Below are positions 1,162 to 44,052 of a DNA stretch of 46,802 bases, one piece after another. Every line of letters begins with the position of its first letter. Within the stretch, counting starts at the first letter, position 1. The notes beneath the pieces are model-generated. The model saw only the letters and a list, made by a program, of their open reading frames with translations, searched no databases and was not told the DNA's origin. The translations under genes were made by a program, and so were the position numbers. Source of the stretch: a virus; the IMG/VR virus record IMGVR_UViG_3300043640_000417, positions 1-46,802 of that record. The stretch is one strand, 5' to 3'.

Positions 1162-1862
1162 TGGCCGCGAAAATACCGGACATGAAATTTGATAAAGAGC
1201 AGACGACATGGGCGCGCTGGGCGCAGCAGGAGATCACCAGCCTGAAGGAGCGCCTGAACGCGAAAGACCGGTCCGACTCGAACCTGAACCAGGGCATGAG
1301 CGCGACGCTGGTGAATCTGGGCAATCAGGTGCAGACGATTGCGGCGACAGAAACGGCGTTGGCGGCGGCACAGGCAACGCTAGCGACGACAGTGGCGGAT
1401 CTTTCGGCGCGGAAAACGTACGCGGTGAATGATGGCAACCTTTCTCGCACCATTAGCAAAACCGCAGGCACCGGAGGGTATATCACCACAGGTATCTCGC
1501 AAACGTTCACATTGACAAGTACAAGAAACGTTCTCATCACCATATCCCTGTTCACCAGTTCGGCCCCCATCGTGACCAATGCCACATCTGGTGGCAGCGT
1601 TTCCACTTTGCTCGCCCCCAAAGTGGATGGGGTATTTACGAGTTTGTACTCGTATAACACCATAGATGTTCAGCCGAGTTTCGGTAGTACCGCAATACTC
1701 ACCTTTATTTCCGATGCTGCCGTCCCGTTTCGGGAATCCGTAGTGCTGAACGCCGGCACCCACACCATAGAACCATTTTTCAATGTCGTTGTGTCCGGTA
1801 CCGTGAATAGCATTTCGGTTGAGAACGCCTCCATGACTATCCAGATCCTCGACGCCGTTTAG
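1161..1862 (+). CDS. Minor tail / fibre-like protein
   Basis: The protein has 233 residues. The ATG at 1161 overlaps the previous stop (TGATG) and follows a GAGGAAGG ribosome-binding site. Residues 1-90 look helical and coiled-coil-like (Leu/Ala heptads, Gln-rich). Residues 95-233 are Thr/Ser/Val-rich beta-type sequence, as in trimeric fibre or receptor-binding proteins. I infer an attachment-related role from this two-part architecture and the position downstream of a tail gene. The stop codon is part of a TTAGCCAC site that precedes the next promoter. Confidence 0.6.
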   Translation: MAAKIPDMKFDKEQTTWARWAQQEITSLKERLNAKDRSDSNLNQGMSATLVNLGNQVQTIAATETALAAAQATLATTVADLSARKTYAVNDGNLSRTISKTAGTGGYITTGISQTFTLTSTRNVLITISLFTSSAPIVTNATSGGSVSTLLAPKVDGVFTSLYSYNTIDVQPSFGSTAILTFISDAAVPFRESVVLNAGTHTIEPFFNVVVSGTVNSISVENASMTIQILDAV

Positions 1863-1869
1863 CCACAAA
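1859..1869. promoter_or_regulatory. Degenerate TTAGCCACTAA site
   Basis: TTAGCCACAAA has one mismatch to the dispersed 11-bp site. It overlaps the stop codon of the upstream gene and lies 9 bp before the first CCTG repeat of the late promoter. Confidence 0.4.
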
Positions 1870-1877
1870 AACCCCAA

Positions 1878-1904
1878 CCTGTGAATACCCTGTAAACTAC
1901 CTGT
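1878..1904 (+). promoter_or_regulatory. Late promoter with 11-bp CCTG repeats
   Basis: CCTG occurs at 1878, 1889 and 1900, exactly 11 bp apart. The -10 hexamer TAAACT is at 1893-1898 and the ATG of the next gene starts 6 bp later, so the predicted transcript is leaderless. No -35 is recognisable at normal spacing. The layout matches the promoters before small terminase, portal, protease and connector genes. Confidence 0.65.
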
Positions 1905-2429
1905 ATGTCTGCTGATGCCGTACCGATACTGATCACCGATCCGGTAAGCCCGCTCGAGTCACTGATCAACGTCCCGATCGCGGCCGTCCAATCGGTTCGG
2001 CAGGGATTCAATTTCAGGTGGGCGAACGCTGCGGCACGTACCGCGCAAACGGGGATGCGTGCGGGAGACTCCGGGTATCAGGTTGACACTGGGGTCGACT
2101 ACCGGCTGGTCGGTTCGACATGGACCGAGCAGAACACGCAGTACACGATCACGCCCGCGACCGGATGGACGGTCGCAACCTCATCGCACATTGGTCTCGT
2201 CAATGGGGAGCTTCAAGGTTTCATCCAATTGATTCGTGGAACGGCACTCGCCGCAAATACTAACGAAGCAGCCGCGACACTCTCGGGTCATCCCGGCGCC
2301 CAAATCTTCTTCCCGGCCGCGGGCACAGGTAGCTCCAATCCCACCGGCGAGGTCATTCAGATTGCATCGACGGGCATTGTCACTGTATTCACTGTCACCG
2401 CCCACACGACGTACTCGGCCTCGATTTAG
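1905..2429 (+). CDS. Small tail/fibre-like protein
   Basis: The protein has 174 residues. The ATG lies 6 bp after a TAAACT -10 box and has no Shine-Dalgarno sequence, which fits leaderless translation. Sequence is rich in Thr, Ala, Gly and Val with little charge, as in head or tail decoration and fibre proteins. A segment near residues 48-72 (GDSGYQVDTGVDYRLVGSTW) resembles the short tryptophan-containing modules of phage fibre tips. I do not recognise a family with certainty. It has its own late promoter and is followed 8 bp later by the endolysin. Confidence 0.5.
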   Translation: MSADAVPILITDPVSPLESLINVPIAAVQSVRQGFNFRWANAAARTAQTGMRAGDSGYQVDTGVDYRLVGSTWTEQNTQYTITPATGWTVATSSHIGLVNGELQGFIQLIRGTALAANTNEAAATLSGHPGAQIFFPAAGTGSSNPTGEVIQIASTGIVTVFTVTAHTTYSASI

Positions 2430-2437
2430 TTCTAATA

Positions 2438-3265
2438 ATGACCAACACCCTCGCTGCCGGTGTCGCCTGGCTGAAAGCGCATCCGACCCGGAAGAATGTT
2501 CCCGGCGCCAGCTACCGCATCGGCTACGGCTGGTCATGGTCGCAACTGTGCGGCTCCGCCGTACGGGATGCGATCGGGTCGAACAAGAATTTCGGCACCG
2601 CAAACATCGCTCGCGCAGCGTCGCACATCGTGTCCGAATCACGTACCGGGATACCGGATGGCGCGGTCGGGTGGTTCTCGCTCGGTTCCGCAGGGCATGT
2701 GGTCTTCTTCTCCGGCGGCAAGCCCGTCATGGCGTCCAAATACGTCACCTCCCTGTTCCCCGACGCACAAGCGCTCGGTACCTGCAGCTCCATCGCCGAA
2801 TACGAGAAGCGCTCCGGCGGCAAGTGGATCGGGTACTCGCTCGACTACGGCGGGGATCGGTTCGCCGGAACGTCGACCGCCAGCACCGGCACAACAACTG
2901 CCGTCACGAAACCACTTAAGCGAAAGGCCAAAACCATGTTCCTCTGGTACTGCACCGACAACAACGGAGGGCTTTGGACCCTCGTGGATACTGAGCGTTA
3001 CATCTACAATCAGACCCGCTCACAGACGACCGCGAATACGTGGGCGGACCTGTACGCGGACGGGCAGGCGCGGACGATTCAACCAGCGAACCTCGCGCAG
3101 GGGCTCACCGGCTACACGAGCGCTGCTTGGCCGTTCCCGAAGACCGTGGCCGCTGCCGCCACAACCGTCAACCTCGCGGCATCCGATCGCGCACTCCTTC
3201 AGCAGATCGCGGCGAAGATCATCCCGACTAAGGCCGTCACCACGTCGACGACGACCCTCAGTTAG
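2438..3265 (+). CDS. Endolysin, CHAP/NlpC-like cysteine peptidase
   Basis: The protein has 275 residues. The N-terminal half has a candidate Cys-His catalytic pair: Cys38 in a SWSQLCGS context and His87 in AGHVVFF. This is the usual arrangement of CHAP or NlpC/P60-type peptidoglycan amidases and endopeptidases. A Gly/Thr-rich linker near residues 150-165 joins an Ala/Thr-rich C-terminal region that may bind the cell wall. There is no signal peptide, so export would depend on holin action, and the two membrane proteins downstream suit that. Start context is weak (TAATAATG). The lysis role is an inference from motif plus neighbourhood. Confidence 0.65.
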   Translation: MTNTLAAGVAWLKAHPTRKNVPGASYRIGYGWSWSQLCGSAVRDAIGSNKNFGTANIARAASHIVSESRTGIPDGAVGWFSLGSAGHVVFFSGGKPVMASKYVTSLFPDAQALGTCSSIAEYEKRSGGKWIGYSLDYGGDRFAGTSTASTGTTTAVTKPLKRKAKTMFLWYCTDNNGGLWTLVDTERYIYNQTRSQTTANTWADLYADGQARTIQPANLAQGLTGYTSAAWPFPKTVAAAATTVNLAASDRALLQQIAAKIIPTKAVTTSTTTLS

Positions 3266-3272
3266 CCACTAA
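3262..3272. promoter_or_regulatory. TTAGCCACTAA site
   Basis: Perfect copy of the 11-bp dispersed site. It contains the endolysin stop codon and lies 14 bp before the TAAACT box at 3287. Confidence 0.65.
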
Positions 3273-3286
3273 ATCTCAAACGCACG

Positions 3287-3292
3287 TAAACT
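3287..3292 (+). promoter_or_regulatory. -10 box for the 3299 RNA
   Basis: TAAACT lies exactly 6 bp before an ATG at 3299, the same geometry as the late promoters. The upstream CCTG repeats are degraded here (CACG at 3283), so activator dependence is uncertain. Confidence 0.45.
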
Positions 3293-3298
3293 GGAAAT

Positions 3299-3370
3299 AT
3301 GAGTAGGGCAGACATGGCACAGCACAACACACCAGAAACGGGTCTGTAGACCTATGGCTGCCCTACTCAT
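3299..3370 (+). ncRNA. Candidate structured RNA or 5' leader
   Basis: A perfect 13-bp inverted repeat (ATGAGTAGGGCAG at 3299-3311, complement at 3358-3370) encloses 46 nt, with an inner hairpin GGTC-TGTA-GACC at 3341-3352. The 5' base of the stem coincides with the transcription start predicted from the -10 box at 3287. A 16-codon reading frame begins at 3299, but its ATG would be buried in the stem. The structure ends 12 nt before the start codon of the holin-like gene, so it could be a stand-alone RNA or a leader controlling that gene. No known RNA family is recognised. Confidence 0.5.
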
Positions 3371-3382
3371 AAAGGTCGCGTC

Positions 3383-3679
3383 ATGACCGGCGAAGACCAG
3401 TCGACAAACATCACTCTCCCCGCCGTGCCGGTGACAGATTTGACGGGAATTTACGTGGCTCTCGGCCGTATCGAGGAGAAGCAAAACAACACCGCGACAA
3501 CGTTGGGCGAAATCAGAACCTCAGTCAACGGCGTAGTGGGAACGCTTAGCTCTCATTCGGCCCGGCTGGCTGTACTTGAATCGCAAGCAAACCCACGCAA
3601 CCCGTGGTATGTAGTTGTCGGTGGCTGGGCGGGGATTGCGGCTATCGCCTTCTCCATCTGGGCCGTGCTCCACCCGTAG
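3383..3679 (+). CDS. Holin-like / lysis membrane protein
   Basis: The protein has 98 residues. An N-terminal soluble part with a heptad-like stretch (residues 28-70) is followed by one transmembrane helix near the C-terminus (about residues 75-96, after NPWYVVVGGW). This arrangement is common in small membrane proteins next to actinophage endolysins. The gene directly follows the structured RNA at 3299-3370. A role in membrane permeabilisation, or in anchoring a lysis complex, is inferred from context. Confidence 0.5.
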   Translation: MTGEDQSTNITLPAVPVTDLTGIYVALGRIEEKQNNTATTLGEIRTSVNGVVGTLSSHSARLAVLESQANPRNPWYVVVGGWAGIAAIAFSIWAVLHP

Positions 3680-3696
3680 CAAGATCAAAGGAGGAC

Positions 3697-3707
3697 TTTG
3701 TGGCTAA
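3697..3707. promoter_or_regulatory. Near-match dispersed site over a GTG start
   Basis: TTTGTGGCTAA is a one-mismatch copy of the dispersed site in the TGG orientation and spans the GTG start at 3700. It may be coincidental. Confidence 0.25.
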
Positions 3708-4947
3708 ATCAGGAGAATGCTCTGTCTGCAATTGGGAGAGTGCGAACGGGGTCAAGGTCGACACGTCGCGGTCTAAGACGGCGTGGGAGATTGAGTCCGG
3801 CATCAGCCGGTCATCGATCAAGAGGCATTTAGAGCACGGGCCACAGACGGCTCCCGACCCCGATAAGAAGACCACCGAAGAATCGACAGATGGCAGTAAG
3901 TCCGTCTCGTTCATCCGCGACAGGCCGGTCACGTTAGCCGATGCGCGTGATTGGATTCGCGCATCCGGCGACGATCCCGAAGACTACAAACTCTCCATCC
4001 GCAGCATTCCCTACGGCAACGGCCTGTCCAGCAACATGATGGCCGCCTCGCCGAAGCCCGAGAAGAAGGCATCTGCGGAAGAACTCGTCACGGCCGCCTC
4101 GGTCATCGAGGCCATCCGCTCCTTCACGTACATTCCCGAGCCCCGCGCGTTCTCGGATGAATCCTTCGTCATCATGCCAACGGACCTGCAGACAGGCAAG
4201 GTCGACTTCAATGGGGGCACGAAGGAGACCGTCGAACAAGCTCTCGAGTCTTTCGCAAAAGGATCTGCGTTCGTCAAAGAGTTCAGGCCGAGGGAGGTCT
4301 GCATCGTGGATGCGGGCGACTCGATTGAGAATATCTACTCCGTCTCGTCCCAACTTGCAACCAACGATCTTGACCTCCCGCACCAGGTTGAGGTAGCCAT
4401 GAACATCTTCCTTGAGGGAATCAAGATGTTCGCACCCCTCACGCCCAGCGTGCGTTATGCCGCGGTCTCCTCGAATCATGGGGCGCACCGCCTCGGCCCG
4501 AAGTCTCCGGCCGGCGATGTCCATGCGGACTACGGCATCGTCATCGCCAAGATGCTCGGGCACGCGCTGAAGCTCAACGATGAAGCTTTCGGCCATGTTC
4601 AGATTCAAACCCCCGAGCCGTTGATGGAGTCCCTGTACTTCCAGACCAGTGGGACCGACATCGGTGTCGTCCACTCGCATCAGGCCGGTGGCGCCGACAA
4701 GATTGGCGATTGGTGGAAGGGTCAGAGCCACGGAAATATGCCCGTCTCGAAGGCGCGCATCCTCCTCGCCGGTCACTGGCACTCCTTCCGCGTTCAGCAG
4801 TCTGGCGACGCGCGCTGGATCTTCGTTGGCCCGGCGTCAGACCGTGGCTCGTCCTGGTTCACAAACGCGCGCGGTGAGCGCAGCGAGAGCGGGATGCTCT
4901 CGTTCACAACGTCAAATAATCTCTGGGACAACCTTCGCGTCCTTTAG
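3700..4947 (+). CDS. Calcineurin-like metallophosphoesterase
   Basis: The protein has 415 residues. The GTG start follows a near-perfect AAAGGAGG. Residues 1-50 hold C7-x2-C10 and H43-x2-H46 around a helix-turn-helix-like segment (SGISRSSIKRHLEHG), possibly a small zinc or DNA-binding element. From about 155 the metallophosphoesterase blocks appear in order: TDLQTGK (D162), DAGDS (204-208), SSNHG (258-261), HSH (325-327) and GHWH (358-361). These correspond to the metal-binding motifs of the calcineurin-like superfamily, which includes Mre11/SbcD nucleases. Substrate is unknown. Its place between two membrane proteins in the lysis block is unusual for a DNA-repair enzyme. Confidence 0.75.
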   Translation: MAKSGECSVCNWESANGVKVDTSRSKTAWEIESGISRSSIKRHLEHGPQTAPDPDKKTTEESTDGSKSVSFIRDRPVTLADARDWIRASGDDPEDYKLSIRSIPYGNGLSSNMMAASPKPEKKASAEELVTAASVIEAIRSFTYIPEPRAFSDESFVIMPTDLQTGKVDFNGGTKETVEQALESFAKGSAFVKEFRPREVCIVDAGDSIENIYSVSSQLATNDLDLPHQVEVAMNIFLEGIKMFAPLTPSVRYAAVSSNHGAHRLGPKSPAGDVHADYGIVIAKMLGHALKLNDEAFGHVQIQTPEPLMESLYFQTSGTDIGVVHSHQAGGADKIGDWWKGQSHGNMPVSKARILLAGHWHSFRVQQSGDARWIFVGPASDRGSSWFTNARGERSESGMLSFTTSNNLWDNLRVL

Positions 4948-4954
4948 CCACTAA
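4944..4954. promoter_or_regulatory. TTAGCCACTAA site
   Basis: Perfect copy overlapping the stop codon of the phosphoesterase gene, 12 bp upstream of a TAGAAT -10 candidate. Confidence 0.6.
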
Positions 4955-4966
4955 TCCCGATCGACA

Positions 4967-4972
4967 TAGAAT
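4967..4972 (+). promoter_or_regulatory. Candidate -10 box for 4982-5384
   Basis: TAGAAT fits TAnnnT. No convincing -35 is visible; the region where one would lie borders the dispersed site at 4944-4954. The downstream gene has its own GGAGG ribosome-binding site. Confidence 0.4.
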
Positions 4973-4981
4973 GGAGGTTCA

Positions 4982-5059
4982 ATGGAAAACGAATTGATTG
5001 ACGGATATTTCTGCCCAACCGACCCGATGGATGACTTGCAATGCGACTCGTGCCAGTAA
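4982..5059 (+). CDS. 25-residue Cys-containing microprotein
   Basis: ATG at 4982 lies 4 bp after GGAGG. The acidic peptide has three cysteines (C11, then C21-x2-C24 at the C-terminus), a minimal zinc-ribbon-like pattern. It lies just upstream of the 5076 membrane protein and shares its presumed promoter. I assign no function; the strong ribosome-binding site is the main evidence that it is translated. Confidence 0.45.
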   Translation: MENELIDGYFCPTDPMDDLQCDSCQ

Positions 5060-5075
5060 ACAAAAAGGAGACCAA

Positions 5076-5384
5076 ATGACTGATGCAACAACCGTAACCG
5101 CCGAGCCCGCGATCCCCGTCGCGGTTCAGGAAACCATCGAGAACGATGCCAACGCCGTCATCACGGCAGCCAAGGTGATCGCACCTAGCGAGGTTGCGAA
5201 AGCTGCCGCGTGGTACTCGCGCTACGCCAAAGGCATCGTCGCAACGGTGGGCGGCCTCGCGACTGCCGCACTCATCACATTCCCGCCTACGGGGCCGATC
5301 TACAAGTACGCCGACTTCGCGGCCATCGTCGTCACCATCATCGGCGTCATCGCGAAAGCCAACGCGGACAAGGTTGCCAAGTAG
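5076..5384 (+). CDS. Holin-like protein with two membrane segments
   Basis: The protein has 102 residues. The ATG follows AAGGAG with 5-6 bp spacing. Two hydrophobic segments (about residues 52-68 and 78-95) are separated by a short turn (PPTGPIYKYAD), and the C-terminus is Lys-containing (NADKVAK). This is the usual pattern of small two-helix holins. The gene is the last rightward gene before the terminator and lies in the lysis block, supporting the inference. Confidence 0.55.
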   Translation: MTDATTVTAEPAIPVAVQETIENDANAVITAAKVIAPSEVAKAAAWYSRYAKGIVATVGGLATAALITFPPTGPIYKYADFAAIVVTIIGVIAKANADKVAK

Positions 5385-5391
5385 CCGCTAA
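5381..5391. promoter_or_regulatory. Near-match dispersed site (CCG centre)
   Basis: GTAGCCGCTAA differs in the first base from TTAGCCGCTAA. It contains the stop codon of the holin-like gene and directly precedes the terminator. Confidence 0.45.
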
Positions 5392-5396
5392 ATGCG

Positions 5397-5427
5397 AAGC
5401 GCCCGGTTCATCGCGAACCGGGCGCTT
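5397..5427. terminator. Bidirectional intrinsic terminator
   Basis: A perfect 13-bp stem (AAGCGCCCGGTTC and its complement) with a 5-nt loop is followed by TTTTC on the + strand. It lies between the convergent lysis operon (+) and the HNH gene ending at 5430 (-), so it can serve both strands. Confidence 0.85.
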
Positions 5428-5429
5428 TT

Positions 5430-6140
5430 CTATGCAACCAGAACCAGGTCGCGCCAGTTCGGGTTTCGATACATCTTCTTGCATGTCAAGCAATCACGAG
5501 TTGGACGACCGTTCTTGAGACGCGAACCCGTATTGTCGGGCGCGAATTCGTGACCATGAACGCAGTGAGTCTTCCGCGCATTGACAGCGGCAGGATTGGC
5601 GCCGCGTAGGACATTGATGCGATTGCCAACCGTCTCAAGGTGATTGGGTCGAACACAAGCCCTGTTGCGGCAGAGATGGTCACGATCGGGCTCGTCTTCA
5701 TATCCCCAGCGATGTGCGGAAATTGGACCAAACTTCCCATAGCCATCCCTGTTGATGTAGGCGGTCCATATCCAACATTCACCGTCAGCTTCCGTCACGC
5801 GAACTAGCGGGTCAGAGAAGTCGACGAAGCCACCGTTCTTGTTGACCTTGGACCAGAACCGTTCATGCTCCGTGAAATCCAGCCGCGTTACATAGACCAT
5901 TGGCTTTCCGCGGCGAAGGCGTTGAGCGTGCAATGAACATAATCCGTCAGTCTCGTGAGGCTCGTTACAGTCCGGGACTTCGCAACCCCTAACTTCGCCA
6001 CGGTCACGATAGGTCTCCATGTCCCAGTCGGGATTGCCGCGCCTCTTCCTGGCGTAGTGCTTCGAGCACAGTCCCGCAGTGCCATTCTTATCCTCGCGCT
6101 GGCAGTACTCGACCGCACACGCCTCAACGTAGGTCGGCAC
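5430..6140 (-). CDS. HNH endonuclease with N-terminal zinc repeats
   Basis: The protein has 236 residues. The GTG start overlaps the upstream stop (TAGTG). Two N-terminal zinc-finger-like repeats of the form C-x4-C-x9-11-C-x2-H occupy C8/C13/C25/H28 and C53/C58/C68/H71. The HNH core follows: CWIW at 122-125, the GYGKF region, and DHLCRNRACVRPNHLE (H155, C157, C162, N166-H167). A C-terminal CVHGHEF...C-x2-C motif (193-220) is probably a third zinc site and recurs in the other HNH protein at 23246-23755. Such genes are usually free-standing homing endonucleases. The same zinc repeat makes up the whole protein at 28868-29245. Confidence 0.85.
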   Translation of the reverse strand: MPTYVEACAVEYCQREDKNGTAGLCSKHYARKRRGNPDWDMETYRDRGEVRGCEVPDCNEPHETDGLCSLHAQRLRRGKPMVYVTRLDFTEHERFWSKVNKNGGFVDFSDPLVRVTEADGECWIWTAYINRDGYGKFGPISAHRWGYEDEPDRDHLCRNRACVRPNHLETVGNRINVLRGANPAAVNARKTHCVHGHEFAPDNTGSRLKNGRPTRDCLTCKKMYRNPNWRDLVLVA

Positions 6141-6604: not shown

Positions 6605-6774
6605 CACGCACCCGCCCTCTGCCGCTCACGGCGTTCCGAGCGCTCCCAGACCTCGCAGTACGCCAGCCACACGAGCCGCGTCGCCTTCCCGTCAGGTATC
6701 TTGCGTCCGAGCGCGAGGCACACGCCGATCCTGATCTGACGCGCGCGGTCGGTTGTTAGTTGCTGCTTAGCCAT
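6601..6774 (-). CDS. Small basic protein, unknown
   Basis: The protein has 57 residues (MAKQQLTTDRARQIR start). It begins 8 bp inside the end of the upstream gene and ends overlapping the RuvC-like gene. The sequence is helical and Arg-rich, ending in an RSERRERQRAG tract that could bind nucleic acid. No family is recognised. Confidence 0.55.
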   Translation of the reverse strand: MAKQQLTTDRARQIRIGVCLALGRKIPDGKATRLVWLAYCEVWERSERRERQRAGAW

Positions 6775-8102: not shown

Positions 8103-8120
8103 CTCATGTCCTCCTTCTTG

Positions 8121-8468: not shown

Positions 8469-8621
8469 TCAGTCCTCCCAATATCTTCCCGTGGCGTATC
8501 GCGGCTCGGGCTCGACACCCTTGCGCAGCGCTTTCTTGACTTCAGTCCGCTCAGCTTTTCCGCGCAGTCGATCCGACTGGAAGGAAACGAACCAGCGCTT
8601 GAGCCGTTTGCGGTTACTCAC
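8469..8621 (-). CDS. 50-residue basic microprotein, GTG start
   Basis: The GTG at 8621 overlaps the stop of the upstream HTH gene (GTGA), and the stop abuts the following ATG. The sequence is strongly basic at the N-terminus (SNRKRLKRWF) and ends in a PRYATGRYWED tail. The tight overlaps on both sides support a real gene. Function is unknown. Confidence 0.55.
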   Translation of the reverse strand: MSNRKRLKRWFVSFQSDRLRGKAERTEVKKALRKGVEPEPRYATGRYWED

Positions 8622-9010
8622 GCCGCCACCCGCCCCAACTCAGCATGCCTAGCGACGGTCCTCTGCGACCGCCCCGTCAGCTTCGCCAGCATCCGCGTAG
8701 ATATCCCCGCGTCGACCGCTTTAGCCACTAACGGGTAGCTGACCTCGCCGCGAGCGTCCATGTGAATCAACTCCAATACCAGCCCCAGAGACTCGCCGCT
8801 CAGGTTGCCACCGGTCTTGTCCGTCTTCCCTGTATAGGCGCCGACATCGGCCGTGCTCATGCCTGTGAACGTGGATAGTTGCCTATTGGAGTAGATGCGC
8901 CACTCGTTCAGGGCTACGACGGCGTTGATGCGCTGTTCCTTGTCGTAGGTGTCGTGGTGGTCGTAGTGGAATTTTGCCTGGCGGACGGCCTCGGTCATTG
9001 GTGCGGTCAT
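8618..9010 (-). CDS. Helix-turn-helix DNA-binding protein
   Basis: The protein has 130 residues. The C-terminus (about 100-125, GISTRMLAKLTGRSQRTVAR) has the shape of a helix-turn-helix. A second HTH-like stretch (YSNRQLSTFTGMSTADVGAYTG, about 40-60) suggests two recognition elements. The N-terminus is rich in His and Tyr. It is one of few plausible transcription regulators in the window and therefore a candidate for binding the dispersed TTAG sites or the late CCTG repeats; that link is speculative. A perfect dispersed site (8721-8731) lies inside the gene. Confidence 0.65.
   Translation of the reverse strand: MTAPMTEAVRQAKFHYDHHDTYDKEQRINAVVALNEWRIYSNRQLSTFTGMSTADVGAYTGKTDKTGGNLSGESLGLVLELIHMDARGEVSYPLVAKAVDAGISTRMLAKLTGRSQRTVARHAELGRVAA
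8721..8731. promoter_or_regulatory. TTAGCCACTAA site inside HTH gene
   Basis: Perfect copy of the dispersed site within the coding sequence of the HTH protein. Confidence 0.5.
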
Positions 9011-12159: not shown

Positions 12160-12255
12160 TTGTGGATTCGTTTCGCGACACTTACGCGGGAGAATCAAAC
12201 CCACCAGTTGCTCGATCAAGTCTGAACCAGGATCGTCCGCGCTGGCTGCGGAGAT

Positions 12256-12266
12256 TTAGTGGCTAG
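12256..12266. promoter_or_regulatory. Near-match dispersed site
   Basis: TTAGTGGCTAG (one mismatch) lies immediately after the stop codon of the SSB-like gene, between it and the tRNA/primase unit. Confidence 0.5.
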
Positions 12267-12863: not shown

Positions 12864-12878
12864 TTGTATCCTCCTTGC

Positions 12879-15218: not shown

Positions 15219-15240
15219 CGAGCCACTATTTAGCCACTAA
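15219..15240. promoter_or_regulatory. Tandem dispersed sites over leftward promoter
   Basis: A perfect TTAGCCACTAA (15230-15240) directly abuts a weaker CGAGCCACTAT (15219-15229), giving an 11-bp repeat. Together they cover the edge of the -10 box and the predicted start site, the position expected for a repressor operator. Confidence 0.6.
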
Positions 15241-18409: not shown

Positions 18410-18420
18410 TTAGTGGCTAA
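18410..18420. promoter_or_regulatory. TTAGTGGCTAA site
   Basis: Perfect copy at the junction between the HicA-like gene, whose stop codon it contains, and the 17860-18393 gene. Confidence 0.6.
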
Positions 18421-24863: not shown

Positions 24864-24874
24864 TTAGCGGCTAA
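24864..24874. promoter_or_regulatory. TTAGCGGCTAA site
   Basis: Perfect site with CGG centre. It contains the stop codon of the 24864-25004 gene and fills part of the 29-bp gap before the next gene. Confidence 0.55.
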
Positions 24875-25004
24875 TGCCGAGCTTCTTTTCGAGCTTGACG
24901 CGCTCGATACGCGATTCAGCGAACGCGATGCGCAATACCTCGCCGAATGAAATGTTCTGCTCGCGCATGATGCTCGCTTGGCGTTCCGGAATCGACTCGC
25001 TCAC
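24864..25004 (-). CDS. 46-residue helical protein, GTG start
   Basis: The GTG at 25004 overlaps the upstream stop (GTGA), so the longer Arg-rich extension is rejected. Sequence MSESIPERQASIMREQNISF, then a helix ending in ERVKLEKKLGISR. Unknown. Confidence 0.5.
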   Translation of the reverse strand: MSESIPERQASIMREQNISFGEVLRIAFAESRIERVKLEKKLGISR

Positions 25005-25612
25005 TCTGGCCACCCTTTCCCCTCGACGTACTCCCGCGCCTCGACCTGATTGGCCGCGGATTCGTACATCCACTTGATGGCCAGGTGCCACTTGCCATCG
25101 ATCAGCATTTCGCTGGTCGCTACGAACATCGGCCGGCCGTCACTGTCAGGCTTGACCGTGAATGTCTCGTGATCGATCCCGGCGTGCTTCGCGCTCCACA
25201 AGTCCCAGTCGCCCCATGCATTGATCATCGCGGCTAGCGCCTCGTCGTCGAGCTGAAGTGTGAGCGTCTTTCCTTCTGCGTCGAAGGAGTAGCGCTCGTC
25301 CAGCGGGTCGATGTAAAGCTCTTCGGCAGTCTCCACCGCATAATCGGCCGTGATGTCCAGAAACGCTTTGATCGTGTTGAAGTTGCGGGTTTTCATACCC
25401 CCGCGATCCTTATCGCCAAGCCGCGCGATCGGAACGCCCATGGTCACTGCGCGACGTGCGGCTCTTGAGGCGTCGATCTTGAGCCCGGTCAGCTCCGCCT
25501 CTTTCATCGCCGCGTACCGTTCGTCAGCGTCATGTCTGGCGATCACCAGGATGCCGTAAGCGGCCTCGAAAGCTTTGAGGTGCGCCTCCTGTGTCGCGTC
25601 GAGCTTGGTCAC
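25001..25612 (-). CDS. Unknown protein, 203 residues
   Basis: An N-terminal helical part (1-65) is followed by a middle part with DRGGMKTRNFNTIKAFLD and a beta-type C-terminal half. Composition suggests a soluble two-domain protein. No motif recognised. Confidence 0.55.
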   Translation of the reverse strand: MTKLDATQEAHLKAFEAAYGILVIARHDADERYAAMKEAELTGLKIDASRAARRAVTMGVPIARLGDKDRGGMKTRNFNTIKAFLDITADYAVETAEELYIDPLDERYSFDAEGKTLTLQLDDEALAAMINAWGDWDLWSAKHAGIDHETFTVKPDSDGRPMFVATSEMLIDGKWHLAIKWMYESAANQVEAREYVEGKGWPE

Positions 25613-28239: not shown

Positions 28240-28250
28240 TTAGTGGCTAA
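28240..28250. promoter_or_regulatory. TTAGTGGCTAA site
   Basis: Perfect copy, 22 bp upstream of the 35-residue gene start and 15 bp from the nested hairpins. Confidence 0.6.
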
Positions 28251-29741: not shown

Positions 29742-29755
29742 TTAGCGGCTAAACT
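29727..29755 (+). promoter_or_regulatory. Promoter fused to TTAGCGGCTAA site
   Basis: Site TTAGCGGCTAA (29742-29752) runs directly into the -10 TAAACT (29750-29755). A plausible -35, TTCAAG, is 17 bp upstream (29727-29732). The leader has a hairpin TCCGGC/GCCGGA (29767-29783) and then ACCGC/GCGGT. Confidence 0.6.
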
Positions 29756-29818: not shown

Positions 29819-30109
29819 ATGCCCAAGGAAACTATCGCAGCAACTCTGGTCGACAACGGCGAGGATGGCGCGTACGCAAACACGCTGAAGATCTCATGGG
29901 GGCCGAAAGGCGGAGCCCCAGAAGCGCCCGATGGCTGGGTGAACGCTGGCTACGCGCAGCTGGTCATTGATCAGTCGGACGAGAGTGGTTTGCCTGCCTA
30001 TGTGATTCTCGGGGAGGATGATGTTGCCCGCCTCCTTCGCACCCTGAAGAAGGTTCGCCGCCGCGCGTTCCGCGAGACCGATTACGGTGTGGGTGAGATT
30101 AGCCGCTAA
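29819..30109 (+). CDS. Small protein, first early rightward gene
   Basis: The protein has 96 residues. ATG at 29819 follows AAAGGGGCG; a longer start at 29792 is less likely. Beta-rich start (KETIAATLVDNGED), central NAGYAQLVIDQSDE and a basic C-terminus. The stop is part of a dispersed site. Unknown. Confidence 0.6.
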   Translation: MPKETIAATLVDNGEDGAYANTLKISWGPKGGAPEAPDGWVNAGYAQLVIDQSDESGLPAYVILGEDDVARLLRTLKKVRRRAFRETDYGVGEISR

Positions 30110-30258: not shown

Positions 30259-30318
30259 TTAGCCACTAAATCCCGCGCGAGGTGTAGGATGGAGTCTTAG
30301 CCGACGTGAGGGTCGGCT
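30259..30318 (+). promoter_or_regulatory. Dispersed site, promoter and 5' hairpin
   Basis: Perfect TTAGCCACTAA (30259-30269), then a -10 candidate TAGGAT (30285-30290, TG directly before it). At the predicted start, a hairpin AGCCGAC/GTCGGCT (30299-30318) follows. It should drive the operon of small genes from 30352. Confidence 0.55.
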
Positions 30319-36010: not shown

Positions 36011-37366
36011 GTGAGCACCACAACAACCACGAAGCCACTGCCCGAAGTTAGCGGCTACAGCGACGAAATAACCCTCTATGCAACGCGCTACAAGCAGGGC
36101 GGGAGAACCGTCTACAGCCTCGACCTGAGCCTCGCGCAGGTCGCATCCATGATCACGCGGCCCGACCCGACTGCCACCAACCCCGGCAACCGGCAGATTC
36201 GCCCACCCCATGCTGAAGCGTTCGGTAAGTACATCCGCGAGCATGAGGACTGGATCATTCCGGGAATGCTCCTTCGTTCCCCCAACATCTTCAACTTCGA
36301 CATCCAAGCCGACCTCGGCGGGGTGCAGTTCGGGATTCTCACCTTCTCGCGGCAGACGCTCAACGACTTGCATATTCTGGACGGCCAACATCGTATCCTC
36401 GGGGTTTATCTGGGTTTCGACGCGCTGAATCGCGACCTCGACAAGGCACGATCCAACCTGGCGCTCGCGCGTCGCAACGAAGGCGCAAGCGGGGCTGCGG
36501 TGAAAGACGCCCAGCGCCGAATCGCGGCACTCGATAAGACGCGCAAACGTCTCGATGATGAGCGGGTGAGCCTGCAGATTTTCGTGGAAAGCGACCCTGT
36601 GGCGTACCGCCAGATGTTTTTCGACATCGCCGACAACGCCCTCGGTATCACGGCCTCCGTCCGAACCCGGTTCGATTCCCGCAAGGTCGTCAACCGGGCG
36701 CTGCCCTTGGTCAGCGATTCTCATGAATTGCTGAAGGCGCGTGTGGATGAGGAAGGCGATCGGGTCGGCCGCGGGTCGGTCTACCTGATGGGCGCGAAGC
36801 ATGTCGCCGAAATCATCCGCACTGTCAACGTGGGGCTCGACGGTCGGGTGAGTCGCCGGCAGGAGGAAGAATTCGATGAGAAGGTGATGGCCGATAAGAC
36901 CAAAGACTTTCTTGATGTTCTGACCGAAGCCTTCCCCCAGATGCGGGCCATAACCCTTGGTCAGTTGACCACCGACCAGCTCCGTCGAACGTCGCTGCTT
37001 GGTTCGGTGCTGTTCCTGCGCGTGCTGGGCGGCGTCTATCATGATCTGCTCGACCCGGAACTCCATGCATGGTCGCGCGAAGATGTGGTGAAATTCTTTG
37101 CCAAGCTGGCACCACACCTCGAAGGACCGGCGTATCCGGGCTCGATCTGGCTCGAACACCTGCCCGAGATCTACACGGACGGAAGTTTCGGCCCGCGAGG
37201 TCGGCGCCAGGATCTTCAAGCCCTCAAGATCGCGCTCGTCGACTGGGCGCTCGACAAGCCGAAGTGGCTGAACGCGAAGCCAGCACCCCGGCCTGAAGAC
37301 GTCCCTGAAGAGGTGTCGACGGAGGAGGAAATGCGCGTGGTCGACGAGATTCTGGCGCGCAAGTAG
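36011..37366 (+). CDS. DGQHR-domain (DndB-like) protein
   Basis: The protein has 451 residues. GTG start after GAGAGGAAAA. The signature LDGQHRILG is at 123-131, with conserved FNFDIQAD and SRQTLNDLHI before it; a long coiled coil spans about 138-190. The family includes DndB, known to act as a transcriptional repressor of DNA phosphorothioation genes, but no dnd genes are seen here. The gene stands alone between two terminators, with dispersed sites over its promoter and start. That suggests autoregulation or a link to the site network. Confidence 0.75.
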   Translation: MSTTTTTKPLPEVSGYSDEITLYATRYKQGGRTVYSLDLSLAQVASMITRPDPTATNPGNRQIRPPHAEAFGKYIREHEDWIIPGMLLRSPNIFNFDIQADLGGVQFGILTFSRQTLNDLHILDGQHRILGVYLGFDALNRDLDKARSNLALARRNEGASGAAVKDAQRRIAALDKTRKRLDDERVSLQIFVESDPVAYRQMFFDIADNALGITASVRTRFDSRKVVNRALPLVSDSHELLKARVDEEGDRVGRGSVYLMGAKHVAEIIRTVNVGLDGRVSRRQEEEFDEKVMADKTKDFLDVLTEAFPQMRAITLGQLTTDQLRRTSLLGSVLFLRVLGGVYHDLLDPELHAWSREDVVKFFAKLAPHLEGPAYPGSIWLEHLPEIYTDGSFGPRGRRQDLQALKIALVDWALDKPKWLNAKPAPRPEDVPEEVSTEEEMRVVDEILARK

Positions 37367-37494: not shown

Positions 37495-38028
37495 ATGGAG
37501 ACGCTACGGTACGAGCCCGACAAAGGACTCGGCAACATCGACCGCATCCTCCTGCGCGGAGCGGCTGCGCATAAATCGTGGAACGAAATCTCGAAGCTCA
37601 CCAACGGGGTGCTGAAGCCTGCCGAGTGCGCGGTGCGCGTCACGGACATCCTCGACGAGCGTGACCCGCTGAGTGAGGCGCAGAAGAAGCTCCTACTCAT
37701 CGACGACATGATGCAGGTCAAAGATCATCTCATGGCTAAGGCGCTCGACTTCAACAATATGGATGCGGTCAAGCCGCTCATCTCGATTCTCACTCAGCTC
37801 GACAAAACTATGGCTGCTGAAAAGTTCGACATGGGGAAGGCGATGTCGGAGATTTCGCGGGCTCATGCTGGACTCATGTTGCAGGGGATCTCGATCACTT
37901 TGGAGCGCTCATTCCTCGAATTGGAGAAGCGCTATCCCGAGGTGAAGAAGTCTGAACTGACCGAGATATTCCAGGTCGCGATGCCTGACGCGATTCGCGA
38001 AATCGAGAGCCGGATACCCGGAGAATGA
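37495..38028 (+). CDS. terS: Terminase small subunit
   Basis: The protein has 177 residues; leaderless start 6 bp after the -10. An N-terminal HTH-like helical part (SWNEISKLTNGVLKPAECAVRV) is followed by a long alpha-helical oligomerisation region. Overlap with the large subunit gene (ATGA) and position just before it support the call. It should recognise the packaging site. Confidence 0.75.
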   Translation: METLRYEPDKGLGNIDRILLRGAAAHKSWNEISKLTNGVLKPAECAVRVTDILDERDPLSEAQKKLLLIDDMMQVKDHLMAKALDFNNMDAVKPLISILTQLDKTMAAEKFDMGKAMSEISRAHAGLMLQGISITLERSFLELEKRYPEVKKSELTEIFQVAMPDAIREIESRIPGE

Positions 38029-39665
38029 GTGGCTACCTCTCCTCCCTCCTCCCCACGCTAGAAGAGCACTTTGCCGACCGCGCGAAGGCGGATCTGTATT
38101 TCAACGATCCAGTACTTTGGGCCAAAGACATGCTGGATGTTGACCTTTGGTCGAAGCAGAGGGAGATTGCCTATGCGGTTCGGGACAATTCCCGTGTTGC
38201 CGTCGCTGCCGGCCACGGCGTTGGCAAAAGCTTTGTTGCTGCGGTACTCATGGCATGGTGGATCGACAACCACCCGCTAGCGCCCGGCCCAGACGGTTTT
38301 TCGCAGACAATGGTGGCGTCAACAGCACCATTTCAGGAGCAGATAAGCGCGATCCTATGGAATAATCTGCGTCAGATTCACACGCTCTCCAAGATGCGGT
38401 TCGAGCAAGGTCTCATCGACCACGCGCTTCCCGGCAGGATTACTGGGGAAAATAAGTGGAAACTAGATGACGGAACGCTAATCGGCCAGGGGCGTAAACC
38501 GCCTGACAATAAAGCCGATTCAGGCTATCAGGGCCTTCACGCAACTTTTTTATTCGCAGTCGGTGATGAGGCCGCGGGACTCGATAAAGAGATGATTGGC
38601 GCGCTCGGAAACATCACCACGGGCGAGCACAACCGGCTCCTTCTCATAGCCAACCCTACGGACCCATCTTCGGAGATGGCGAAGATCTGGAAGGAGAAAA
38701 AAGAGTCCTGGCACACCATGCATATCAGCGTGTTCGACAGCCCGAGGGTGACCGATGAGCCGGGATTCCCGGAAGCGAAGAAGGCTGCGCTTTCTGGTTG
38801 GAAGTACATCAACGAGAAGAAGGATGACTGGGGCGAGGATGACCCGCAGTACATCTCCCGCGTGCTCGGCCAGTGGGCCTTCGATTCGGGCAACAATCTC
38901 TTTACTGAGGTCGATCTGGCCCATGCCGCCAATGCTCATGTTCTGCCAGACCCAGAGGCCATTATCGAGTTCGGCTGTGACATCGCCCGGATGGGCAAAG
39001 ATGGCACTTTCGTTTACACCTACCAAGAGGGGGAAGTCTGGGAGTGTGACCCCGAAACAAATCAACCGATACGCCCGAAAGGTGAGCGCGGGGGGATACT
39101 GCGCTACCTAGCCGACTGGAAGAAGGCCCCGCTGGTGGGCGATGACCCCGAGAATCTAGGGACGTCGCAGCGTATCCACGCACATGCTCTAGCGATGGGT
39201 GCCAAAATTGTAAAGGTTGACGCATCCGGGCTGGGGTCGGGCGTCATCGACGGTCTTGCAATGCTGAACCGGGGCCAATACAGGGTGGTTGAAATTTTCG
39301 GTGGCGCCGCCAGCTCAGACCCTCGCGCATGGATCAACGCTCGCGCGGAACAGTATTTCGAGCTGAAGCGTCGCTTTTTCGCCGGAATTATTGACGTTGA
39401 TCCCAAGGATGTCGCCCTCCTGGACGACTTGCGGGGCATCATTTTTGAGTTCAACGATAAGGGTTCGAGGAAGATTGAATCCAAGGATTCCATCAAGCGA
39501 AAAGGTGGAAAATCTCCTGACATCGCGGATACTGCATGGTACGCAGCGATGAACGTTGACCATCTCATCAGCGGCCCACAACCCGGCGACATCGTTACCC
39601 GCACCCCCGCCCAACTCCTTCGCGAGATGGAACTGTCCGGCTTCCGCGATCCCTACCCGATGTGA
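38025..39665 (+). CDS. terL: Terminase large subunit
   Basis: The protein has 546 residues. Walker A is AAGHGVGKS (61-69) and a Walker B/acidic pair is FLFAVGDE (175-182). The C-terminal nuclease has D319 (FGCDIARMGKD), a later IVKVDASGLGSGV, and DIADTAWYA near the end, matching the RNase H-fold nuclease metal ligands. The ATPase drives DNA packaging through the portal. Full-length for the family. Confidence 0.9.
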   Translation: MSGYLSSLLPTLEEHFADRAKADLYFNDPVLWAKDMLDVDLWSKQREIAYAVRDNSRVAVAAGHGVGKSFVAAVLMAWWIDNHPLAPGPDGFSQTMVASTAPFQEQISAILWNNLRQIHTLSKMRFEQGLIDHALPGRITGENKWKLDDGTLIGQGRKPPDNKADSGYQGLHATFLFAVGDEAAGLDKEMIGALGNITTGEHNRLLLIANPTDPSSEMAKIWKEKKESWHTMHISVFDSPRVTDEPGFPEAKKAALSGWKYINEKKDDWGEDDPQYISRVLGQWAFDSGNNLFTEVDLAHAANAHVLPDPEAIIEFGCDIARMGKDGTFVYTYQEGEVWECDPETNQPIRPKGERGGILRYLADWKKAPLVGDDPENLGTSQRIHAHALAMGAKIVKVDASGLGSGVIDGLAMLNRGQYRVVEIFGGAASSDPRAWINARAEQYFELKRRFFAGIIDVDPKDVALLDDLRGIIFEFNDKGSRKIESKDSIKRKGGKSPDIADTAWYAAMNVDHLISGPQPGDIVTRTPAQLLREMELSGFRDPYPM

Positions 39666-39693: not shown

Positions 39694-41178
39694 ATGACCA
39701 CTGGCCCCCAGCAAGTCGCAGAAGCAACGCTGCGCCAGACGATCCGCGAACAGGGCGACACTCTGACCCGCGCGCAGGAATCGATCGCCAGTCTTCAACT
39801 CGCGATCGAGGATAAGGGCTGGAAGCGCATCGGCAACCAGTACGAAGCCGATGGCCTGAGCCTCGAATCGCTGCAATTGGTCTCCGAAGATCTGCGCGGT
39901 TGGATTGTCGGCGGCGGCATCATGAAGCGCATCATCGAACTGCGCGGGACTTATGTCTACGGCGACGAGGTGGGGTTCAAAGGGCTCACGCTCGCGGCCA
40001 AGAAGGCTTTCACGTCCCAGAACAACATCGACAAGATTTTCAGCGTCACCGCGTTGCAGGAAATCAACCGCGCCCACGGCACAGACGGCAACGTGGTTTT
40101 CCTTGTGAACACGAAAACTTTCGACGCCATCCGCGTGCCGTTCGAGGAACTGGAAGATCCGTTCATCGACTCGGATGACCCGGAGCGGATCTGGTATGTC
40201 CGGCGCAGCTACACGCGCGTCACCGCCGCGAACCCGCAAGGCGTCAAGGTGGACGAGTTTTATCCGACCGCGACCCTTCCGTCGACGCAAGCATCAAAGA
40301 CCAGCGTGAATCTCGGCGCGGGGCCGAACATCCCCGTCAACCGGAACTTTGTCGCCGTCCTCTGGAAGGTGAACGGTCAGACCGGTTGGCCGCTCGGCAT
40401 TCCCGACCTCCTTCCGTCGCTGCAGTGGGCCGAGAAGTACACCGGCTATCTGAAGAATCAGGATCGTTTCGCCGAGGCGCTTGCTGCTATTGCGTGGCAG
40501 TACAAGTCGCAGAACAGTGATCAGGCGAAGAAGATGGCCGCAACCATCTCCAACCGCGACGTAGCGGCGACTTCGACCGCCAGTGCGGGCATGGATGCCG
40601 TGCCCATGAGGGGGAACTCGGACGTCTCCTTCGAGAACGGCGCCCCGCTCGCGGGTCAAGCAGCAGCAGCCGCCGAAGTTCCGATCGAAGCCGTGCTCGC
40701 ATCCTCGATGGTCAGCGCCGGCGGAAACCTTGACCCCGACCTCGTTCGTGTCATCGGCGCCCGCCGCCAGTCGGCCACTGCATTCTTCAAAGCGCTCGGC
40801 CGCGTCATGGGCGCACCCGACCTCGAGGTGATCTGGCCGGATGTTACGACCGAGACGCCGTTCCGTGAAGCCCAAATGGCGATCAGCGCGTATGCCACGG
40901 GTATGTTCTCACCTGACGAAATCCGGCCGACTGTCGCAGAGCGTTTGCGCATCAAGATCGCGGACAACTCCCACGCGCCTGAGGGTGCGCTCATTCCGAA
41001 CAACGTCGAGACGCTGAAGCTGACTGCTCAATTTGCCGCTAAATCTTCGCCTGCCGCCGATCCGACTGACCCCGCAGACGGCGACCTGACCAATAAGCAG
41101 GGCAAAGACGCATTGGGCGTAGGCAAACTGAGCGATGACGACAACACCGCGCGGGACAAAGGCGAGACCGGCAATTAG
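39694..41178 (+). CDS. Portal protein
   Basis: The protein has 494 residues and no ribosome-binding site, as expected for a leaderless transcript. Location, length and the pattern of a helical N-terminus, a central alpha/beta region with repeated aromatic residues and a long C-terminal helical and low-complexity tail match phage portals. It forms the dodecamer through which DNA is packaged. The C-terminal 40 residues are Asp/Thr/Lys-rich. A near-match dispersed site (TTTGCCGCTAA) lies at 41032-41042. Confidence 0.8.
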   Translation: MTTGPQQVAEATLRQTIREQGDTLTRAQESIASLQLAIEDKGWKRIGNQYEADGLSLESLQLVSEDLRGWIVGGGIMKRIIELRGTYVYGDEVGFKGLTLAAKKAFTSQNNIDKIFSVTALQEINRAHGTDGNVVFLVNTKTFDAIRVPFEELEDPFIDSDDPERIWYVRRSYTRVTAANPQGVKVDEFYPTATLPSTQASKTSVNLGAGPNIPVNRNFVAVLWKVNGQTGWPLGIPDLLPSLQWAEKYTGYLKNQDRFAEALAAIAWQYKSQNSDQAKKMAATISNRDVAATSTASAGMDAVPMRGNSDVSFENGAPLAGQAAAAAEVPIEAVLASSMVSAGGNLDPDLVRVIGARRQSATAFFKALGRVMGAPDLEVIWPDVTTETPFREAQMAISAYATGMFSPDEIRPTVAERLRIKIADNSHAPEGALIPNNVETLKLTAQFAAKSSPAADPTDPADGDLTNKQGKDALGVGKLSDDDNTARDKGETGN

Positions 41179-41180
41179 TG

Positions 41181-41229
41181 CCTGATTGTGGCCTGATAGT
41201 TTCCTGTGAATTTCCTGTACGCTGGTGAC
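41181..41229 (+). promoter_or_regulatory. Late promoter with four CCTG repeats
   Basis: CCTG at 41181, 41192, 41203 and 41214: four copies at exactly 11 bp. -10 TACGCT at 41218-41223, ATG 6 bp later at 41230. The longest repeat array in the window. Confidence 0.75.
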
Positions 41230-42144
41230 ATGACCTTCGTTCGTGAAAACAGCGGTATTGTCCGCGAGGCCGTGGGCGACGGCGATGACGGTATCTACCG
41301 CATCAAGATCATAAAGGCCGGGCTCGGATCGAGCGCGTTTTACCCGCCCGAGGTAATCGAGCGCGACATCAAGGCCGCCTTCCCGGTTGGCACCAAGAAT
41401 TTTCTTGATCACCCGACCGCTCAGGAGTCGTGGGATCAGCCCGAGCGCACCGTAACTAAAATCGCGGGCCAGCAGGTTTCCGAGGCCGAGTATGACCCAA
41501 CCGACCAGAGCGCTTACGCCAACGTGCAGTTCGGAACTCCACACCGCCAGTTCATCGCCGAGAACTACAAGAACCTCGGCATGAGCATCTACGCGATGGC
41601 CGAGACGGAGATTGGCACAGTCGGCGACTACACCGGCCAGGTTGTAACGAAACTCGTTCCCGACGTCCTGAACAGTGTCGACGTCGTGACCGCAGCAGGA
41701 GCTGGCGGCGCGATCGTCCAGAAGGTTTCCGAGAGCTATAAGCGTCTCGTGACAGAAGGTACTCCCACACCCGTGGAAGAGACCGCACCCACCCAAACAG
41801 AAGGAAATGAATTGGACATCAAGGATCTGAAGGAGGCGCTGGTCGAGGCGAATGCTGCACTCGTTACCGCGCTCACCGAAGCCCTGAAGCCGACTCCTGC
41901 CGAGCCTGTGACGGAAAGCAACCTGGCGGCCGAGTACACGCTCGCTGCCGAGTCGGACCTTCCGAAGGAGGCGCGCGCGGTTGTCTTCGAGGCAATCAAA
42001 GCGGGCACTCCTGCGGCGGATGCGATCGCTTCCCAGACCAAGCTCGTCGAGTCGATCAAGGCCTCTCTCGAAGAGGACGTAGCCAGTGGCCGCGTGCTCG
42101 AGTCGACGGTCTCTGCCGAGACCGTACTGCCGAAGGGCTGGTAA
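41230..42144 (+). CDS. Capsid maturation protease / scaffold
   Basis: The protein has 304 residues. The start at 41230 is set by the promoter; an earlier in-frame ATG lies inside the repeats. Residues 1-170 (GTKNFLDHPT, SAYANVQFGTPHRQFI...) have the composition of a protease domain of the prohead type, and the position between portal and capsid fits. Residues 190-304 are Glu/Ala/Lys-rich helix, like an assembly scaffold. Catalytic residues cannot be named with confidence. Confidence 0.6.
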   Translation: MTFVRENSGIVREAVGDGDDGIYRIKIIKAGLGSSAFYPPEVIERDIKAAFPVGTKNFLDHPTAQESWDQPERTVTKIAGQQVSEAEYDPTDQSAYANVQFGTPHRQFIAENYKNLGMSIYAMAETEIGTVGDYTGQVVTKLVPDVLNSVDVVTAAGAGGAIVQKVSESYKRLVTEGTPTPVEETAPTQTEGNELDIKDLKEALVEANAALVTALTEALKPTPAEPVTESNLAAEYTLAAESDLPKEARAVVFEAIKAGTPAADAIASQTKLVESIKASLEEDVASGRVLESTVSAETVLPKGW

Positions 42145-43753: not shown

Positions 43754-43765
43754 CCAACCCCCGTC

Positions 43766-43798
43766 AAGCGGCCCTGACCCATTCGGTTGGGGCCGCTT
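43766..43798 (+). terminator. Hairpin after capsid gene
   Basis: AAGCGGCCC and its complement GGGCCGCTT form a 9-bp stem around 15 nt. No T-tract follows, so it is more likely a partial terminator or RNA-stability element between capsid and the next gene. Confidence 0.45.
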
Positions 43799-43816
43799 GC
43801 ATGAAAGGACAGAATC

Positions 43817-44038
43817 ATGGCAGCACCCAAACCAATCGTGCTCACCCAGCGCTCAGCGGTAGCCGGTGAGAATGCTCCCGAGCCACTGGTCGTGGTGGGT
43901 TCGCTCCCCGCCGGCCTCGCACCCGCAGTGGGAACCGCGGCACTCCTGACTGCGGGCACTGACACGGCACTCCGCACATGGAGCGCGAAGATGATCGCCG
44001 ACTACGTGGCGGCCCAGATCGCGGCTATCCCTGCTTAG
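43817..44038 (+). CDS. Small structural-region protein
   Basis: The protein has 73 residues; ATG after AAAGGACAG. Pro/Ala-rich start (AAPKPIVLTQRSAVAGENAP). Looks like a capsid-associated or connector accessory protein. Unassigned. Confidence 0.6.
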   Translation: MAAPKPIVLTQRSAVAGENAPEPLVVVGSLPAGLAPAVGTAALLTAGTDTALRTWSAKMIADYVAAQIAAIPA

Positions 44039-44041
44039 TAG

Positions 44042-44052
44042 TTAGCCACTAA
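44042..44052. promoter_or_regulatory. TTAGCCACTAA site
   Basis: Perfect copy 3 bp after the stop and just before the terminator stem. Confidence 0.6.

Follow-up and report, generated by a model that had tools for sequence, protein, structure and literature searches.

What function can be assigned to a short, near-palindromic sequence that recurs throughout a viral genome? The question is raised by the virus record IMGVR_UViG_3300043640_000417, analysed here at its full length of 46,802 nucleotides (the window), for which an original prediction had listed 12 perfect and about 15 near copies of the 11-bp site TTAG-N3-CTAA and had proposed a phage-wide network of regulatory binding sites. The window is a linear, probably partial virus record from a group of uncultured phages that is represented almost exclusively by IMG/VR contigs, with a few metagenome-assembled genomes. 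We consider it fairly probable that a lysogeny (immunity) repressor of genome-wide reach, encoded by a temperate actinobacterial phage, uses these sites as its operators.

All 12 perfect copies of TTAGNNNCTAA (TTAG-N3-CTAA) were found at their predicted positions, compared to 0.06 expected from dinucleotide shuffles (the prediction had estimated fewer than one), and none of 100 such shuffles held more than one; the enrichment over sequence of equal composition, on which the prediction had been staked, is therefore present. With one mismatch allowed, 24 copies were observed vs 4.7 expected, and an unbiased gapped-word search returned this site as the top signal in the window. The centres of all 12 perfect copies are CCA, CCG, TGG or CGG, as had been described. 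When the copies are turned to a CCR centre, they align as nTAGCCRCTAA, in which the TAGCCRCTAA core is almost fixed and the outer 5′ T is exchangeable (A, C or G in several copies), while the CTAA side is not; the site is therefore a slightly lopsided dyad, which corrects the original description. A position model refitted on this alignment totals 28 sites in the window and 0–2 in simulated sequence. According to a simple purpose-written gene caller, on which all gene-edge and intergenic assignments rest, 23 of the 28 sites (82%) are intergenic or at a gene edge, compared to 26% of random positions. A location over stop codons at operon ends, proposed earlier, applies to about five sites (e.g., 1859, 3262, 4944, 5381) and is not the rule, which is intergenic or gene-edge placement. 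Sequence similarity between the copies stops at the site edges.

Relatives were gathered from IMG/VR via the terminase, DndB-like and helix-turn-helix (HTH) proteins and via a DNA pattern for paired sites, and three actinobacterial metagenome-assembled genomes (Acidimicrobiaceae, Solirubrobacteraceae, Thermoleophilaceae) were added. The window and the 17 relatives with a fittable motif formed a comparison set of 18 genomes. Each of the 17 carries its own dispersed, mostly intergenic set of 9–39 sites, numbers that are approximate because the models were fitted on the same genomes in which they count; in simulated sequence these models gave 0–6 matches. Of the 397 sites fitted over the 18 genomes, 311 fall between genes or at their edges, which is significant in each genome (weakest in G025, p 0.02). 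Variants of TTAG-N4-CTAA occur in nine relatives, the N3 form of the window in one (G025, 6 copies vs 0.01 expected) and different dyads in most of the others. In a gapped-word search to which no target motif was supplied, the N4 type or a near variant was the top or leading word in G001 (17 copies vs 0.02 expected), G002 (10 vs 0.00), G005 (6 vs 0.04), G009 (8 vs 0.01) and G011 (10 vs 0.01); the same type is found in G027 (12 vs 0.02) and G021 (18 perfect copies), with variants in G026 and G028. The G001 word is TTAGCTAGCTAA, where the window has TTAGCCACTAA. Other genomes use words of their own: gaATTAAG..cc.AATcc in G013, cGATAAATANTTATC in G014, TTAGCGCGCAAA in G030, CCTAAA-N3-TTTAGG in G029, ACAAACGCACA in G003 (the only clearly asymmetric motif of the group) and TAGCACGCAA, common to G032 and G033; the G032 model, without refitting, gave 33 matches on G033 vs 0–4 in five other genomes. 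No clear motif was found in G034, G035, G036 and the short contig L080. In G029 (L111) 14 fitted copies occur in 17 kb (1335–16485), and their half-site is TTTAG as in other relatives, but everted rather than inverted.

The strongest evidence that these different words are versions of one system is that the sites recur at the same gene families. The genes of the 18 genomes were grouped into families, a site was scored if present within 200 bp upstream, and site ownership was shuffled 2000 times, separately for each genome and only between genes whose upstream gaps were alike. The observed recurrence (sum of squares 777, permuted mean 405) was reached in none of the 2000 permutations. Upstream sites were found for Sak4 in 9/10 genomes, for an excisionase-like (xis-like) gene in 5/5, for a tail-region gene in 10/12, for the post-capsid gene in 10/15, for the portal in 9/16, for the integrase in 7/13, for the DndB-like gene in 7/16 and for a gene family named f38 in 6/14, while genes within operons had few or none (terminase 1/16, capsid 0/15, SSB 0/9, the HTH11 family 0/14). 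The nine Sak4 genes with a site span genomes that use several different words. The proposal of a phage-wide network is thus well supported, both by the dispersed intergenic sets in all fitted relatives and by the orthologous placement; of the conservation that had been expected in related phages, position and architecture are kept and the exact sequence is not. The insulation of operons that the prediction had also suggested is not supported.

A further regularity concerns promoters. When each site is read in the direction of its downstream gene, a strong −10 hexamer begins 3–8 bp past the site in 22/112 cases in the discovery genomes and in 28/156 in a second, independent genome set that had not been used when the idea was formed, in which every other 6-bp bin held 1–9 such hexamers; about 20% of sites are so linked at the hexamer threshold used, which does not class the others either way. 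Some of these −10 boxes have a start codon about 7 bp further on, the arrangement that leaderless messages would show. A weak preference for T at +3 from the site was also seen (22 downstream vs 10 upstream), whereas a −10 overlapping the site end (offset −3) was discarded, as it is largely produced by the site's own TAA. No recognisable −35 was found at the site-linked promoters. Neighbouring sites lie 20–22 bp apart in six cases in G001 and four in G002, with further cases in G021, G027 and G033, and in several G001 pairs the −10 is located between both copies.

The site-bearing relatives mostly encode an integrase: eight have an integrase or recombinase, of the tyrosine type in G001, G002, G005, G009, G011, G014 and G021 and of the serine type in G013. 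Sites lie between the divergent int and excisionase-like genes of G002, G011 and G021, and in G001 a site pair separates int from a divergently oriented gene, probably the one with the HTH_17 match in that set. A search next to the integrase for a repressor gene gave excisionase-like genes only and no obvious repressor. The cultured cousins LeeroyJenkins and Lyell have related terminase, capsid and primase genes, and in the first 50 kb of each there is no dispersed dyad and no homologue of f38 or HTH11; both are taken as probably lytic because no integrase is annotated in that stretch.

A lysogeny repressor fits both the integration systems of the relatives and the placement of sites over the predicted promoters of lytic and int/xis operons. 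The putative repressor would occupy a dyad of 10–12 bp, commonly just upstream of a −10 hexamer and so at the place where RNA polymerase binds, and in the prophage it would block the int/xis, recombination, head, tail and other operons, silencing most transcription units. The two copies spaced by 20–22 bp, or two helical turns, in some relatives suggest cooperative binding. The specificity of the repressor would drift between relatives and all sites would change along with it, so that each lineage would acquire its own immunity type; the lineage of the window would have settled on an 11-bp dyad with a 3-bp centre. The enrichment, the placement and its conservation, the −10 linkage and the paired spacing are computed results; that a binder exists, which protein it would be, and that it represses rather than activates, we infer.

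Three proteins encoded in the window are candidate binders (Table 1). Two of them, HTH11 and the DGQHR/DndB-like protein, had been proposed originally and are possible; f38 is at least as good a candidate. HTH11 is conserved in the temperate group and, like the DndB-like protein, is nearly universal in it, the latter being present in every motif-bearing relative except G003 and without a match among 50,697 cultured phage records. Homologues of f38 occur in most relatives with enough sequence, and its HTH is seen in an AlphaFold2 (AF2) model of the G001 homologue (pLDDT 85). Motif distance correlates with the f38 HTH segment at 0.38, compared to 0.06 for the rest of the protein, and the turn before the recognition helix reads GL[GHS]T[TSK] in 8/8 TTAG-CTAA-type genomes with f38 and in none of the others, which is suggestive only, as the TTAG-CTAA-type genomes are related. 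Foldseek searches of f38 and HTH11 against the PDB gave no significant match. Two routes to the binder were not decisive: the phylogenetic profile of f38, at first seemingly confined to site-bearing genomes, because a hidden Markov model then detected diverged homologues in two genomes with different motifs of their own, G003 and G014; and Mantel and column-association tests, because primase, SNF2 and other proteins correlate with the motif as well or better.

Several observations weigh against a lysogeny repressor. About 18% of the window sites are within genes, those at 8721, 14696, 22579 and 41032 being inside called genes. No integrase match was found in the window, a linear record shorter than most relatives. 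G003, in which an integrase match was likewise sought and not found, still has nine sites, of a different and asymmetric kind. Motif distance correlates at 0.63 with primase, 0.58 with SNF2, 0.54 with HTH11 and 0.47 with DndB, against the value given above for the f38 HTH. Finally, the marked tendency of a −10 box to follow the site closely, without a recognisable −35, is also what an activator site could show.

Under that alternative, which we judge unlikely, though it is the main rival, a phage protein on the dyad would replace the −35 and recruit the host RNA polymerase to the −10 located 3–8 bp downstream. MotA boxes of the T4 middle promoters work in this way, with an activator bound in place of the −35 box. 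The sharp −10 peak in two independent genome sets, the missing −35 and several candidate leaderless starts right after such a −10 are all in its favour. However, a control on −10-like hexamers elsewhere in the same genomes, which have no site, showed that these lack a −35 as well; its absence therefore cannot separate activator from repressor, and was rejected as proof of activation. Moreover, the distance between site and −10 varies by about half a helical turn, the sites stand ahead of early, recombination, integration and late operons alike, without temporal order, paired sites bracket the −10, and the putatively lytic cousins, with related capsid, terminase and primase genes, show no sites in their first 50 kb. 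A related idea, to which we also give a low probability, is a novel control class in which a small HTH protein, either f38 or HTH11 with its two HTH units, would activate transcription, or switch between activation and repression, from a dyad that takes the place of the −35 at most operon promoters, with half-site, spacer and half-site polarity (TTTAG..CTAAA mostly, CTAAA..TTTAG in G029) re-tuned genome-wide between relatives.

Genome-wide sites are already known from the stoperators of cluster A mycobacteriophages, with which the original prediction had drawn a parallel. These sites of 13–14 bp are asymmetric and oriented with transcription, their two-domain repressor binds them as a monomer, and most of them are not linked to a promoter (PMC6550527, PMC9283540, PMC13313380). 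As in cluster A (L5, Bxb1, TipsytheTRex) and in the cluster CA Rhodococcus phages, some 20–30 short sites are spread across a temperate actinophage genome, they are mostly intergenic or at gene ends, and their sequence diverges between relatives, in clusters A and CA in step with immunity type. Unlike those of cluster A, the sites of this group are near-palindromic, unoriented and often 3–8 bp ahead of a −10, some relatives have them paired at 20–22 bp, and their spacer length is changeable. The copy number (28 in the window, 9–39 in relatives) agrees with stoperators, but asymmetry and orientation both fail, and for this reason the sites are not assigned to that class; the parallel holds for distribution and breaks down in the dyad symmetry, the lack of orientation and the −10 tie of about 20% of the sites. 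It is accordingly improbable that the bound protein, like that of cluster A, mainly halts elongating RNA polymerase between genes, as many intergenic copies and several sites over stop codons within gene series might suggest: site strand in the window is independent of gene direction (15 same, 13 opposite), whereas cluster A sites are inactive when reversed (PMC9283540), and many sites are promoter-linked. Blocking elongation may be a side function of the same protein.

Other dispersed motifs offer partial likenesses. Cluster O mycobacteriophages (Corndog) carry more than 30 dispersed 17-bp dyads, TGTTCGG-N3-CCGAACA, suspected to bind a dimer (PMC4351075); they share the variable 3-bp centre, the dispersal and the lack of orientation with transcription. 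They differ in their words (by the unbiased search) and belong to unrelated phages without integrase, and no function has been assigned to them (PMC4351075), whereas a functional reading is offered here by the integrases, the promoter linkage and the conserved placement at orthologous genes. The start-associated sequences of cluster K are likewise short motifs repeated near gene starts in actinophages and are tightly linked to translation starts (PMC3203893; compared in PMC4351075); the present sites, by contrast, are dyads at distances from the start codon ranging from below 0 to above 100 bp. The Nostoc cyanophages A-1 and N-1 have 21–43 intergenic motif copies, suggested to be promoters or stoperators (PMC4916379), which as here do not consistently follow the direction of the flanking genes, but they are described as asymmetric, concern different hosts and phages, and no functional follow-up was found in the literature. 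Nor did we find, in the papers searched, a description of a dyad-symmetric, promoter-linked version in which sequence, spacer and perhaps half-site polarity change and positions stay fixed. The sites indicate that genome-wide operator networks are not peculiar to cluster A-type phages and that a palindromic, promoter-linked form exists in this uncultured group. With sites that keep their places at given genes while the whole set of copies shifts in sequence from one relative to the next, the group provides a natural series for how a regulator and some 20–30 operators change specificity in concert, the question that underlies how phage immunity types evolve.

A role of the dispersed sites in partition or DNA organisation (parS-like, packaging or replication) is very improbable. 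In its favour, three TTAGTCCACTAA-type sites lie next to genes resembling ParA and ParB in an unrelated 195-kb contig (G017); but placement in the present group follows operon heads and −10 boxes, most relatives carry integrases, and the families listed from the gene sets scanned in G001 (25/35 families) and G002 include no ParA/ParB family. An origin by chance, from base composition or from a repeat that spread through recombination is already refuted by the shuffle controls, by the loss of similarity at the site edges, and by diverged relatives having the sites independently and at orthologous genes.

Table 1. Sites of the refitted model and candidate binding proteins in the window.
Feature	Position	Strand	Context
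Near site TTAGCCACAAA	1859..1869	+	Over stop codon
Perfect site TTAGCCACTAA	3262..3272	+	Over stop codon of upstream gene
Near site TTAGCCACAAA	3697..3707	-	Overlaps called start
Perfect site TTAGCCACTAA	4944..4954	+	Gene end; TAGAAT -10-like hexamer 12 bp downstream
Near site GTAGCCGCTAA	5381..5391	+	Over stop codon
Weak near site CTAGCCCCAAA	6586..6596	+	
Perfect site	8721..8731	+	Within HTH gene 8618-9010
Near site CTAGCCACTAA	12256..12266	-	Between SSB gene and tRNA-Leu/primase
Near site CTAGCCACTAA	13704..13714	-	Upstream of Sak4 gene
Perfect site TTAGCCGCTAA	14696..14706	-	Within exonuclease gene
Perfect site	15230..15240	+	Intergenic; partial second copy 11 bp away
Perfect site	18410..18420	-	Called intergenic (within unselected minus-strand open reading frame 17860-18507)
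Near site GGAGCCACTAA	20806..20816	-	Gene start
Near site ATAGCCACTAA	22579..22589	+	Within called gene
Perfect site	24864..24874	-	Gene end; 30 bp upstream of next minus-strand gene
Near site ATAGCCACTAA	25969..25979	+	Intergenic
Near site CTAGCCACTAA	26181..26191	+	Intergenic
Perfect site	28240..28250	-	22 bp upstream of minus-strand start codon
Perfect site	29742..29752	-	Intergenic; 43 bp ahead of plus-strand gene
Perfect site	30099..30109	+	Over stop codon
Perfect site	30259..30269	+	Intergenic, upstream of rightward gene block
Near site ACAGCCACTAA	33498..33508	+	
Near site ATAGCCGCTAA	35588..35598	-	Intergenic, upstream of DndB-like gene
Near site GTAGCCGCTAA	36048..36058	-	5′ end of DndB-like gene
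Weak near site	38026..38036	-	Start of terminase gene
Near site TTTGCCGCTAA	41032..41042	+	Within portal gene
Weak near site	41175..41185	-	Portal gene end, ahead of gene 41230-42144
Perfect site	44042..44052	+	Directly past gene end, ~170 bp ahead of gene 44221-44676 (site ahead of this gene in 10/15 relatives)
Candidate binder HTH11	8618..9010	-	130 amino acids; two HTH units, AF2 pLDDT 93; in primase operon
Candidate binder f38	25001..25612	-	203 amino acids; long N-terminal helix, HTH, C-terminal domain
Candidate binder DGQHR/DndB-like	36011..37366	+	PF14072, Pfam E 2e-27

Besides these proteins, the window encodes a Sak4-like annealing protein, an exonuclease, a primase-polymerase, a SNF2-type helicase and a WhiB-like regulator, together with capsid and terminase genes assigned via similarity to annotated phage records. 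The closest cultured matches are distant, with 50% for the terminase (Pseudanabaena phage Pan2) and 49% at best for the capsid and ~28% for the primase (both from Microbacterium phages); megablast of positions 1–25000 against phage records gave no match. The host is probably an actinobacterium, as relatives were found in actinobacterial metagenome-assembled genomes and the window has a WhiB gene. The DndB-like gene is located near the terminase genes in most of the group, and no other dnd genes are among the families found.

The paired-site scan of all viral contigs returned six contigs, including G001 itself and G021, which proved to belong to the same group; the other four (G017, G018, G019, G020) were rejected as unrelated and look like iteron, par or chance arrays. 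The three sites of G017 (L070, 3708–3912) sit within a larger palindrome, ATGTTAGTGGACTAACAT, and the unrelated phage contig G018 (L067) has five TTAGCGTGCTAA/TTAGCGGGCTAA copies in about 120 bp (10770–10891), an iteron-like arrangement. The motif first seeded in G033 was discarded as a coding tandem repeat, an 18-bp GGTCTCCGGCAACGCC-type unit repeated about 19 times (L104, contig coordinates 37144–37468). Finally, a tRNA-Leu(CAA) is found in the window at 12086–12159, at the 5′ end of the primase gene, and in Microbacterium phage LeeroyJenkins a tRNA-Leu is also located directly upstream of the primase, which suggests a conserved position in both.

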